Below, one piece after another: positions 34,838-41,113 of a stretch of 64,000 nucleotides of DNA. The stretch is taken from positions 124,001 to 188,000 of the forward strand of contig JBAIAA010000780.1 of assembly GCA_037893245.1 (NCBI GenBank), written 5' to 3'. Each line of letters begins with the position of its first letter. The first letter of the stretch is position 1. Below the pieces are notes generated by a model, which was given only the letters and a program-made list of their open reading frames with translations, was not told the DNA's origin and did no database searches. The position numbers and the translations under genes were made by a program. Source of the DNA: Crossaster papposus (lineage: Eukaryota; Echinodermata; Asteroidea; Velatida; Solasteridae).

Positions 34838-35783
34838 GTTGTCAGTGCATCTAAACTTCGCCATGGATACCGAGTTGAAGCTAGGACAGTCGGTCAACCT
34901 TCTGACTGGGTACAATACGGACATCTACTCCGTGCCCTTCAACAAATCCCCCACGCCCGCCCTCAATGAGATTGACATCATCGTCAAGAGCCCTGACAAC
35001 GATGCTGAGTGGTCCTGGCCAACGATCTCTCTTCACGATAACGCCGAGGACCTGCTGAGTGCTGTCTTTCAGGTCAAGCTCAGACCTCTTCATAACGTCT
35101 CCGTTAAAACAGGCGTGGCAGGTGTCTGGCCAGCAGGAGCTCTTGTCCTAGCTGGGTTGCCTGCTTCAGATCGCTCTGAGGCTGTCGAAGAACTATCCAG
35201 TCAACTTGGAGTTGATCTTGACACGGACTGGTCCTATGCTCTAGTCCGCCGTACACGCAAGATCGGCACAGCCAACCATCCCTTCTATGAGAGTGAAATC
35301 TATGGCCGTCCCGACCCTGACACCATATTGAAACCAAACACCCTGGCAGCCTTTAAATCCTTGGAGAAGATGGGGAACAACTCTACCAACATATCCAAGC
35401 AAGGTGCTGAGGGCTACTTGAATGTCTATGAGACCTACGGCTCACACTTCGTATCCAGCGTCGACACTGGTGATACCATCTTCCAGGTCTTTGCCTATAC
35501 CTCAGTCAATTACCAGAATGTCGTCAGTGTTTACGAGAAAAATCCAGGTTATCTGAGTGGTCCCAAGGCCACTTCCTTCGCTGTGTTCACCACGCCCCGT
35601 TCTAAAAGCGGGTATGGTTACACCGCAGCCATCGGCAAAATCTGCATAACCAGTCAAGATCCCAATATGGAAAGATCTCTAAAAGGTGGTCTTTGGATGG
35701 ATGAGACGTATGCGGTAACCGACAGCATCTTCGCCCCTTTTCTCCGCTCCGATGCCATCAATGCCAACACCGTCTTTAAGAAG
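34838..35783 (+). CDS. MACPF-like gene, exon A
   Basis: It follows a good acceptor (CTTTTATTTCAG). The first in-frame ATG is at 34863 in context GCCATGG. If upstream coding exists, the entry phase would place one base before the Leu codon at 34839. The exon encodes about 307 residues starting MDTELKLGQSVNLL, with the MACPF-like motif at about residue 192 from that Met. The end is uncertain: AAG|GTCGTC at 35784 is a weak donor, chosen because it preserves phase 0 into exon B; the open frame runs on to 35837 into transposon sequence. Confidence 0.7.
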
Positions 35784-38700: not shown

Positions 38701-41113
38701 TCAAAAGAAACGACTGGCTGATCTAAAGGTCTACCTGAATGCAAAGCCAGAAGATCTAGATGTTGAGAAGGTTGACCTGATTGGGCTGTCTGGCCAACTT
38801 ATGTTCTTTGAGCGCCAGATGCTGATGACTTTGGCTTCCACTGTGGTTATTCAGGATAGAGCTTTACAGTACGAGTACCTACGACCACCCACTCCTATAG
38901 GCTCCTTCACGATGTTGAACTTGCAGCTCGCCATCCTCAATCAATCTCAGAGTATCAATGAAGGATTGACAGTTCAGCCTCAACCAGAAAGCCAGACAAA
39001 TCCAATCATCTATGAAATTCACGGCGTCAAACCAGATAGTATCACAAACAACCAGGCCTACACTTTCAACATCAGCCTTAACAAGCGTGAGTTCGCCTCG
39101 TACAACTATGTGCGCATAGAAAGTGTCCATGTTGAGATTGGTGGCATAACGTCCACTAATAGTGGCAAGTATTACACGGAGCTGAGATTCGACGGACATC
39201 CGTTCTTTGATCGTGGATTTGATGGCCAATCCTTGAAGTTCCAGACGACCTCACGGATCTTCACCGGTCTTCATGACGTCAGCACCAGTAGTCACGTGGT
39301 ACATGATGGCAATGCTGTCGTCCTGAATCCAAAAGCTCTACTGGCCGTAACTGGCGAAGATGCTTTCGGTTCTACCTCCCAAATCACTCCTTTCTCAAAC
39401 TGGCAAGTATCACTGCCCAAGACTGAGAGCAACGAAGGTATCAAGTTTGACGACTACACTCGGGGTGTGACAGTCCGTCTTATCTTCAGTATCTATGCAC
39501 AATTGCAGGAATCTACCGCGACACCCTGGGAAAGGAACGTTGTAGCTCGGCGCCTTCTTAATCGTGGCGATTACATGAACCTGGCTGTGGCAACTGAACC
39601 ACCAGATAGCCCTCCAACCCCAACAGACGTGTCTCGTACCGAAGTCCTTGGTGCCATGAAGGGAAAATCTGTCTGTGAGGGTTGGGATGCGGTGTTCTCA
39701 ATGACCGCTAAACAGGTGAATGATCATTTAGAGGAACAATATCAGAACCGCTTAGACAACCCGGTCTTCACGAGGGAAACCGGTGAGCGTGAGGCTGAAC
39801 ACAAGACTTCGGAGGGCAAGACACTTAAGACGGTGTTCAACTTCACCTTCAATGCTCCTCGGCTCCAGTTTCTTCTGAACAACTCGAATTCTGCTCGGGT
39901 TTTCATGCCCATCATATCTGGAACCTATGAATACCCTGTCTTAGTCGATGGCACTTGGATTGAATTGGAGAAGACTGAGCTGAAGAAGTCTGACGGGGCC
40001 TACGTCCAAGGAGACGTTCCTCTGTCTGTCATTCCAGGATCTGTCTCCACCCAGCACAACGTGGCCATCAAACTCAAGGGTGGGGGTTTCTCGGCCCAGA
40101 ATTTCGAAGCTGGCACACAAAATCCATTTTTAAAATCTAGTCTGGACACATACTTCCATGGTCTGAAGGACGGCTACGAATTGTATATCATCGGCACTCT
40201 TGATCTGAAAGCATTTACGGTCCTGCCTTCTCTAAATCCAACGGGTTTCTTGTTCCACGTCCACCATGCTCCTAGCAATCGAGATATCCTTCAGCTCTTC
40301 ATTGCCACTACTGGAAAACTGCAGTCAGAAACGTCACTGTCTATCAAAGAGCCTATTCCATCAGAGTACGGTAGCTCCTTGATAATCAACTCCAAGATCT
40401 TCTTCCAAGATGTTGTGCCAATTTCTCTTGGAGATGATGGTCTTCGTCTCACCTGGAAAGCTATCGAAGGTAGTACTAGCGCCCCTTGGTCCACCAAAGT
40501 CACAAGTGGTTCCGTGTCGGCTCATTTTCCTGCCTTCTTGGTGGGTAGCCATGTAGTTTACCCAGGCAACCTCACGGTTAATGAGTACGTCTCGGTCAAA
40601 AACAACAGGATATATGTCGATTTTACTGGAATGCAGTTGTTACCAGGAGACGAGACGTCAGGTTGGAATACCAAGGAGGAATTTTCCCCAGGCAAACGGA
40701 AATACGACTTCCAATATTCGACATCCCTGTTTTACCAGCACACTGATCATTCTCTCGATGTGACAATTAATATGAACACCCCCTTACCGCTACAGGTTAC
40801 AGGTGATGATCAGGAGCAATCCATAGGTTTCGCGGCCACCAAGTCCACAGTCGACTTGAATTTTGTACTCGACCCACCATCCGGGACCTGTAGCAGCACC
40901 GATCGAGAATTGCAGAAGATATTCAAGCCTTATCTGCAGCGAATTTTGCCTTCAGCGATGGTGAATGTCTTTAACAAGTCCTTCGAGACCGTGTCTCTCT
41001 TTGCCCTCAAGAATCTGCTGTTCCCTGATAAGAATTTTATCAAACTGGAAGAAGGGGCGGTGCCCGGTGACCTGATCATCTTTGGGAATTTCACTAAGGT
41101 TCCTAAACCTTAG
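34838..41113 (+). CDS. Large MACPF/CDC-like, helical, P-47/OrfX-like protein (3 exons)
   Basis: Three exons (34838-35783, 36654-36929, 37337-41113) keep one phase and give about 1657 residues from the Met at 34863, or more if an upstream exon adds a signal peptide. Exon A carries the MACPF-type signature YGSHFVSSVDTGD (Y-G-S/T-H-F then G six residues later). Exon C first encodes about 450 residues of heptad-like helix with a hydrophobic stretch (IASSLFSLAFTFV), as in helical pore formers. A beta-rich part follows, then about 500 residues opening with GWDAVFSMTAKQVNDHL and closing with LFPDKNF and PGDLIIFGNF, which resembles clostridial P-47/OrfX (TULIP) proteins. The combined architecture is my inference; membrane attack or binding is not demonstrated. 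Codon use is host-like, and the poly(A) signal is at 41312. Confidence 0.75.
35815..36498. mobile_element. MITE in intron A/B with TTGTTATACCACGG ends
   Basis: Inverted ends TTGTTATACCACGGCAATAG (left) and CTATTACCGTGGTATAACAA (right) bracket about 680 bp of noncoding DNA. The right end adjoins and partly shares CCTGCTGT sequence with the hairpin at 36495-36635. Together the two fill nearly the whole intron. Confidence 0.8.
36495..36635. repeat. Near-perfect hairpin in intron A/B
   Basis: CAATTGTTGCCTGCTGTGAT to CCCTCG pairs with the mirrored sequence ending ATGTCACAGCAGGCAACAATTG, arms of about 65 nt around GGCTTCGCC. It ends 18 bp before the inferred start of exon B. Confidence 0.9.
36654..36929 (+). 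CDS. MACPF-like gene, exon B
   Basis: 92 whole codons begin YYRMLIWRGIFKAAVYV, include NCPYDLDSVFQDSDP, and end FASAIQ before a consensus donor GTACGT at 36930. The acceptor is tentative (TTTGTCGAG|TAC). Exons A and B are in the same phase, as expected if the intervening 870 bp arose by insertion of mobile DNA. Confidence 0.75.
37337..41113 (+). CDS. MACPF-like gene, exon C (3.8 kb, terminal)
   Basis: The acceptor ACTTTATAG opens 1258 codons starting IPATEKTPIDVP, with no intron to the stop at 41111-41113. Order: Thr/Pro linker (about 1-50), long alpha-helical region rich in Q, A, E and L (about 75-500) with a hydrophobic hairpin-like segment near 310-330, beta-rich region (about 500-750), then the P-47-like block from GWDAVFSMT (about 780) to the end. 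A single 3.8 kb coding exon is unusual next to the 60-140 bp exons of the other genes here. Confidence 0.85.
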   Translation: MPATEKTPIDVPASSTVSLLGHVVTSGETGPTPPNLRLSDPAFKEIQNRLFCGEFYGGLQISSSSDSKGFVIMNGLMFQEVKGQVSILRDVRETPNEAVLTKHLTDMQFALVAAEARLNFLLSNAASQGQSLELLKRFLLWLAGVAGSNQDDKLAALQARAVYLASVVAADKGAGVPVPILRYEAYKDVVTNVQDVLKTASNQLMDYQNQVRARQAEEREVEREAALNENIVKSGKLLQDYIGAQASYQQSLQNMFSNFNKIKMEELDKADKKADQLGASLSKQRAVVNDAIEDYKDAVAEWIEKQTLKAAIDIASSLFSLAFTFVTPAASFGALKSLGEVVQKIQKAVKIFDAVINTYRKYKALPSNPKKVVDSLKDLGPDGLDLPSSLEWDEMKVNFDTTLASGPDVGAKKTLSAAFSILVLRGKALLQTQSTIQGIVADLSANQQRINLHEDQKKRLADLKVYLNAKPEDLDVEKVDLIGLSGQLMFFERQMLMTLASTVVIQDRALQYEYLRPPTPIGSFTMLNLQLAILNQSQSINEGLTVQPQPESQTNPIIYEIHGVKPDSITNNQAYTFNISLNKREFASYNYVRIESVHVEIGGITSTNSGKYYTELRFDGHPFFDRGFDGQSLKFQTTSRIFTGLHDVSTSSHVVHDGNAVVLNPKALLAVTGEDAFGSTSQITPFSNWQVSLPKTESNEGIKFDDYTRGVTVRLIFSIYAQLQESTATPWERNVVARRLLNRGDYMNLAVATEPPDSPPTPTDVSRTEVLGAMKGKSVCEGWDAVFSMTAKQVNDHLEEQYQNRLDNPVFTRETGEREAEHKTSEGKTLKTVFNFTFNAPRLQFLLNNSNSARVFMPIISGTYEYPVLVDGTWIELEKTELKKSDGAYVQGDVPLSVIPGSVSTQHNVAIKLKGGGFSAQNFEAGTQNPFLKSSLDTYFHGLKDGYELYIIGTLDLKAFTVLPSLNPTGFLFHVHHAPSNRDILQLFIATTGKLQSETSLSIKEPIPSEYGSSLIINSKIFFQDVVPISLGDDGLRLTWKAIEGSTSAPWSTKVTSGSVSAHFPAFLVGSHVVYPGNLTVNEYVSVKNNRIYVDFTGMQLLPGDETSGWNTKEEFSPGKRKYDFQYSTSLFYQHTDHSLDVTINMNTPLPLQVTGDDQEQSIGFAATKSTVDLNFVLDPPSGTCSSTDRELQKIFKPYLQRILPSAMVNVFNKSFETVSLFALKNLLFPDKNFIKLEEGAVPGDLIIFGNFTKVPKP

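Follow-up and report, generated by a model that had tools for sequence, protein, structure and literature searches.

The stretch of DNA analysed here, the window, is 64,000 nucleotides from the sea star Crossaster papposus and carries on its forward strand a gene for a pore-former-like protein of about 1673 amino acids (aa). The gene was read from its open reading frames (ORFs), using an uninterrupted copy of the locus on contig C248 as a guide, and consists of two coding exons separated by a GT-AG intron. Its product joins an N-terminal MACPF-like region, a middle region that reads as helical and a C-terminal block (C block) remotely related to P-47/OrfX proteins. On balance, and with modest confidence, the sequences are taken to suggest that the whole architecture came anciently from bacteria and that the animal protein would be a pore-forming or membrane-disrupting defence factor. 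Among the papers listed in searches of the open literature, without preprints, none dealt with a fusion of MACPF and P-47 or with this family in animals. The parts of the gene, in window coordinates, are as follows.

34838..34862, + strand: putative 5' untranslated region by sequence reading; a preceding splice acceptor, TTTCAG, ends at 34837.
34863..35817, + strand: coding exon 1, first part (MACPF-like region), with the ATG at 34863, from the ORF listing and reading.
35436..35474, + strand: MACPF signature YGSHFVSSVDTGD, an in-frame peptide.
35818..36639, no strand: young repeat-element insert interrupting exon 1, missing from C248.
36640..36929, + strand: coding exon 1, remainder, 290 nt identical to C248.
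36930..37336, + strand: putative intron of 407 bp, donor GTACGT, acceptor TTATAG.
37337..41113, + strand: coding exon 2, 1258 aa and a stop, open throughout.
37601..39019 (approximate), + strand: middle region, helical by reading, from alignment A11.
Exon 2 residues 309-331 (approximate): most hydrophobic stretch of the family, by hydropathy averaged over alignment A2.
38960..39589 (approximate; overlaps the middle region), + strand: conserved region of no known class, from alignment A10.
39629..41110, + strand: C block, remote P-47/OrfX relative, from profile-profile comparison and stand-alone bacterial relatives.
39680-39730, + strand: C-block opening peptide GWDAVFSMTAKQVNDHL, in frame.
41063-41092, + strand: closing peptide PGDLIIFGNF, in frame.

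All three peptides quoted in the first-pass annotation of this DNA (YGSHFVSSVDTGD, GWDAVFSMTAKQVNDHL and PGDLIIFGNF) are present in frame, and the single long coding exon that it described is real (37337-41113, 1258 aa, free of stops). The protein LOC119734556 of the sea star Patiria miniata matches this full 1258-aa exon at 72%, which is far beyond chance. The same annotation had drawn two separate exons, A and B, upstream; these are one exon, split by a repeat insert of about 822 bp (35818-36639). Beyond the insert, 36640..36929 continues the same region of Patiria and of the other aligned rows, and the putative splice joins AIQ to IPATE, matching the Patiria protein. On contig C248 the locus is free of the insert: no stop lies between its ATG and the intron donor, and the products of exons 1 and 2 are 415 and 1258 aa.

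The MACPF-like N terminus that had been proposed holds up in the family. The core G.H..S....G (G200, H202, S205 and G210 in P0001 numbering) is invariant in all 19 full-length rows of alignment A2, and YGSHFVSSVDTGD shows the MACPF signature (G-[TS]-H and the following glycine). The Pfam profile PF01823 passes its cut-off in one of the five bacterial proteins scanned (L025, 28.5 bits against 21.5) and is below it or without a match in the other four. It was found at E<=1 in five of the 23 members of alignment A1, which holds 22 of the 38 proteins matched with the animal query and the window (best 1.9e-6), in four of 18 rows of another set (best 6.7e-8), most rows there being trimmed to the middle, and as a precomputed match on 17 of the 113 proteins matched with a Nitrosospira query. 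The cut-off is passed within the family and not by the window exon by itself. In profile searches of the PDB, MACPF proteins were borderline (perforin-like protein 1, E 0.12; C8 alpha, 0.94; perforin-1, 2.3). The first-pass annotation had proposed profile searches for both MACPF and P-47 as a check; the former was borne out by PF01823 in relatives, with exon A below the cut-off, and for the latter PF06597 gave zero matches.

The relationship of the C block to P-47/OrfX, which had also been proposed, was found by comparing profiles. The C-block profile (A7, 19 rows) matched a profile of five P-47/OrfX-type proteins (A8) with a probability of 93.8% and E 1.7e-7 over 227 columns, starting at the opening WD motif, and the full-length profile A2 matched A8 in the C block only (93.3%). 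Two further profiles that contain full-length rows, A4 and A9, gave 94.4% and 65.1%, and a P-47 profile of three rows gave 72.7% against the C block and 85.4% against the full-length profile. In the controls, reversed profiles reached 0.1-0.2% and column shuffles at most 0.3% (60 against A7, 20 against A2); the middle profiles A10 and A11 gave 0.4% and 0.1% against A8. The P-47/OrfX-type reference proteins for this comparison came from two genomes, one of 298 examined from the family to which the Pseudomonas entomophila locus belongs and one of 395 from the phylum that holds the Chitinophaga locus; none was found in 398 genomes of the phylum of the P. entomophila locus. Bacterial rows alone matched A8 at 90.7% over 432 columns, and stand-alone C-block rows matched the animal C block at 99.9% (E 4e-35). 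These comparisons support the C block as a remote P-47/OrfX relative, and the link reaches the animal protein through the bacterial family, since bacterial rows match A8 and animal rows alone come to only 6.8%.

The block shares with P-47, OrfX2 and OrfX3 a collinear profile match from the WD motif, but it differs from them in its fusion to a MACPF region, in the lack of any PF06597 (P-47) match in the window exons, members, bacterial proteins or alignments searched with Pfam, and in its closing motif. Of the 51 rows of alignment A3, some of which are incomplete, 39 have a PGD..FG-like motif within their final 40 residues; A3 contains 35 of the 38 proteins matched with the animal query (without P0030, P0035 and P0037), P0039-P0041 and 12 bacterial loci. 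The motif is absent from all five P-47/OrfX-type proteins examined, and PGDLIIFGNF, which had been taken for a P-47 hallmark, is not one. A match of profile A5 to Leptospira Ig-like proteins in the PDB search (E 4e-4) most likely arises via the Ig-like tails of stand-alone rows.

The description of the middle as helical with one most hydrophobic segment also stands, the former by reading and the latter by hydropathy averaged over A2, which places the stretch at about residue 747 of the Patiria protein. A resemblance of the middle and the following region to parts of ClyA-type or TcA proteins was considered and set aside. The Pfam and PDB searches gave no ClyA-type or Tc-type match of the middle, no Tc or ClyA sequence having been compared directly. 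A PDB sequence search with exons A and C of the first-pass annotation returned nothing at E<=1, profiles A3, A4, A9, A10 and A11 returned nothing below E 0.06 (limit E<=10; mostly short coiled segments), and a search of NCBIfam gave no match of weight.

The same layout is found in bacteria. When 84,980 species genomes of bacteria and archaea were scanned for motifs, 27 loci were obtained; 19 are full length, several of these sharing one species name, and eight hold only the C block or a part of that block. The 19 full-length loci (GTDB) come from several phyla, encode 1664-1946 aa and are 27-32% identical to the animal protein in the best segment, within the exon 2 region. The Nitrosospira protein used as a query gave its 113 matches from 7983 candidates scored, and 105 of the matches cover at least 96% of the query. 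Among the named carriers, some of them metagenome-assembled genomes, are Nitrosospira, Chloroherpeton, Kamptonema, Gloeothece, Undibacterium, Pseudomonas, Streptomyces, Geobacteraceae, Alteromonas, an Arsenophonus endosymbiont, Gemmataceae, Aneurinibacillus, Metabacillus, Desulfosporosinus, Microcystis and Pyrinomonadaceae. These proteins, annotated as 'MAC/perforin domain-containing' or 'hypothetical' and about 1650-1700 aa long, resemble the animal protein in length, in the order of parts and in conserved blocks throughout. They differ in that each of the 19 loci is a single uninterrupted frame, while the animal gene has a coding intron. Full-length bacterial homologues are consistent with the possible horizontal acquisition that had been suggested. 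The same query also matched a transcript of the amoeba Stereomyxa (P0147) that encodes a member of the family.

Four of 72,556 plasmid records hold the full-length gene, annotated as hypothetical in two and as FliJ family in two; a phage origin was considered and rejected, there being zero matches among 50,697 phage records. Around ten full-length loci no common partner was seen when neighbouring ORFs were read by eye. Two neighbouring ORFs were domain-scanned, those of the gene on a Nostocales plasmid, and are a phage integrase and a collagen-repeat gene. Two C-block-only relatives sit in toxin-delivery settings. In Photorhabdus australis (L043, 7995-10349) such a gene lies in the same gene run as a contractile-injection tape-measure gene (PF19268, E 1.6e-43), from which one 260-aa ORF separates it; the run also has an AAA ATPase, and three upstream ORFs are without a Pfam match. 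In Pantoea, a C-block-only gene adjoins an RHS gene. Among 298 genomes of the family of Pseudomonas entomophila eight match, one in full length (the query locus itself) and seven with C-block stretches only. A genome of the family Pseudomonadaceae (G309, L079 2565-11413) has three tandem C-block genes of 827-830 aa, and similar genes elsewhere show weak matches to bacterial Ig-like domains in their tails.

Animal relatives are few and scattered. A search of 5.8 billion proteins, in which 7989 candidates were scored, gave the 38 matches; six of them carry an organism name, and these come from five animals. Patiria miniata has two genes (72% and 52%), and the others are the hagfish Myxine glutinosa (56%), the brittle star Amphiura filiformis (51% over 72%), the octocoral Dendronephthya gigantea (64% over half) and the glass sponge Oopsacas minuta (50% over half). 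A search with the A2 profile returned 12 proteins, three of the seven P rows of the profile itself not being listed, and is therefore not a census. P0006, P0009, P0011 and P0021 start where Patiria reads IFQ-VFAF, a start that fits a eukaryotic intron just upstream.

The trees, which are unrooted, place the animal members in one clade. In a tree built from 39 rows (41 minus two long ones) over as many as 1258 columns, the 13 animal-clade rows group with support 100/100 on a stem of 0.91. P0036, P0038 and P0150 are nearest to them; the resulting set of 16 is separated from the other 23 rows at 100/100, and the three group with each other weakly (79/28). A quick tree of 50 rows gave one animal clade of 33 rows (support 100, stem 0.94), with P0036 and P0038 elsewhere at weak support. 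A third tree, of 585 columns and 39 rows, from which P0029 and P0032 were dropped for coverage and P0039-P0041 and seven of the 12 bacterial rows were left out by choice, has a clade of 32 rows, seven of which are the window and named animals, on a stem of 1.14. The Stereomyxa row falls among other, mostly bacterial, rows, apart from the animals, and may represent a separate transfer or contamination.

Because this layout is shared by many bacteria and only a few, scattered animals, the animals probably took the gene from bacteria long ago, and a single animal clade with a long stem fits an ancient transfer with patchy retention. The late acquisition that the first-pass annotation had read from the exon structure is not supported: the animal clade takes in echinoderms and hagfish as well as sponge and octocoral, and its stem measures 0.91-1.14 changes per site. 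Transfer in the other direction, from animals to bacteria, is very improbable: the trees do not infer a root, but bacterial members occur in several phyla, and the stand-alone C-block and P-47 relatives found are bacterial. Movement of the gene between animal lineages, or repeated entry into animals in place of one early acquisition, appears unlikely. It would account for the patchy carriers (six proteins from five named animals among the 38 matches) and for the 585-column tree, in which the octocoral groups with sea star and hagfish (99/95) and the other Patiria gene stands outside this group as the partner of the brittle star. However, since Patiria has a gene on both sides, an old duplication followed by losses fits the same tree, and a grouping of window, Patiria and hagfish, constrained together against the seven other rows, was not rejected (p-AU 0.43).

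The proposed transfer from bacteria has a precedent of a kind in MPEG1 (perforin-2), a MACPF protein with a signal peptide and a C-terminal membrane anchor. For MPEG1, which is intronless in sponges, a transfer from prokaryotes to early animals is suggested in PMC3477005. MPEG1 is another protein; for the present gene, full-length relatives are found in bacteria, and an intron interrupts the animal copy.

Several results weigh against an ancient bacterial origin of this whole architecture or against the parts assigned to it. With exon A alone, PF01823 gave E=0.015 and 15.9 bits, under the 21.5-bit cut-off. Compared with a single P-47 sequence, the C-block profile reached 1.1%; against A8, animal-clade rows by themselves reached 6.8% and stand-alone C-block rows 1.4%. 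At E<=1, PF06597 matched in none of 14 carrier genomes (nine with a full-length gene and five with a C-block gene only), and no orfX-p47 cluster was found in them. The middle region has no meaningful Pfam or PDB match, profiles A10 and A11 included. The trees fix neither the root nor the donor, the nearest rows (P0036, P0038 and P0150) being weakly grouped. Finally, the first part of exon 1 differs between C248 and the window by four amino-acid changes and zero synonymous ones.

The function has to be read from the same parts. In known MACPF/CDC proteins such as perforin, MPEG1 and C8/C9, the MACPF part is followed by EGF, C2 or P2 domains. The gene described here shares with this superfamily the core of the signature and PF01823 matches that range from weak to significant, but its MACPF part is followed by a helical part of more than 400 residues and the P-47-like block. 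It also differs in that neither a signal peptide nor a C-terminal anchor is evident: by eye, with no predictor applied, no signal peptide was seen in the C248 copy, Patiria, P0001, P0036, P0038 or the bacterial N termini, and no membrane anchor in P0001, P0036 or P0038. The label 'secreted' in the first-pass annotation is not supported by this reading of the N termini. If the protein is a defence factor, the lack of an evident signal peptide suggests that it may be released from damaged cells or act inside cells. If its fold is that of P-47, the C block is a lipid binder of TULIP type; it would recognise lipid, the helical part could serve as a lever or as a second membrane-inserting element, and the MACPF part would oligomerise and insert, forming a pore. 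Oligomerisation and membrane insertion are described for MACPF domains in PMC7371996.

An alternative with the same protein and origin is a non-lytic role, in which the protein would handle lipids, repair membranes or take part in developmental signalling and its helical part would be a scaffold. This is considered rather unlikely, and yet it has several points in its favour. Some MACPF proteins are not lytic, and the absence of an evident signal peptide would suit such a role; according to PMC6791001 and PMC7020563, TULIP domains are present in P-47 and OrfX2, and both proteins bind lipid in vitro. On the other hand, two C-block relatives are found near injection or RHS genes, and scattered retention in the named animals suits defence over housekeeping. 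With the defence role retained, it is possible, though doubtful, that a complete pore-forming weapon of bacteria, made up of a MACPF part, a helical inserter and a P-47-like lipid-binding block, was captured once by early animals and gained introns. Sponges, corals, echinoderms and hagfish would have retained it for cell-autonomous defence and most other lineages would have lost it, or it may since have been passed between marine animals. The gene links animal MACPF immunity, the little-understood P-47/OrfX lipid binders of bacteria, and bacterial proteins associated with injection. Should the proposed reading be true, the two copies in Patiria miniata, an echinoderm used in laboratories, would allow direct tests of what a P-47-like block does and of what became of a bacterial pore former after its capture.

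The C248 copy bears on whether the locus is intact. It is collinear with the window, at 97-99% around the gene and, with order kept, at 97-99% at 29-34 kb and 90-96% at 46-50.5 kb. On account of this collinearity at high identity, C248 is probably the other haplotype of the window locus or, less probably, a recent duplication. Of 914 candidate copies of the insert 40 were scored, the window copy counted in, and all of these are full length at 99-100% identity. Judged from these copies, it is a young repeat element that breaks exon 1 of the window copy only, not that of C248. Base differences between the two copies (blastn) amount to 2.5-2.9% in flanking non-coding sequence, to 9/3774 in exon 2 and to 1/407 in the intron, and the 290 nt after the insert show zero differences. 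The intron is also nearly identical, and the low difference is thus not confined to coding sequence.

The source assembly (1.02 Gb, 1841 contigs) was searched for further copies. With exon 2 as the query, 21 places matched. Besides the window and C248 these are copies, either degenerate or partial, on C212, C819, C251, C343, C263, C264 and C268 (L004-L021, L053 and L085-L087). The dispersed decayed copies hold pieces at 56-97% protein identity, and the matches on all these contigs except C268 include frames with stops. These frames, together with the broken window copy, would be expected if the family were decaying in this animal and the locus were largely a relic. This is nevertheless judged quite improbable, as C248 is open through both exons and exon 2 differs between the copies by eight synonymous codon changes against one amino-acid change. 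Several dispersed copies have a 3' flank in common and differ in their 5' break points. An origin as retrocopies that share a 3' end at 44975 was considered and rejected: all three copies examined continue alike past 44975, which places the break in the window copy.

With exon A as the query, three places were found, in the window, C248 and C212. A separate MACPF gene in the same genome (C300:188492-189067, L001; PF01823 E 8e-17) is not among them. Two other features of the window lie downstream of the gene. At 42431-42756 the octamer AAGTTTTC is repeated about 40 times, which gives rise to spurious open frames (FQVFKFSS), and at 58583-63999 there are two overlapping long open frames of 859 and 1008 aa, possibly a retroelement.

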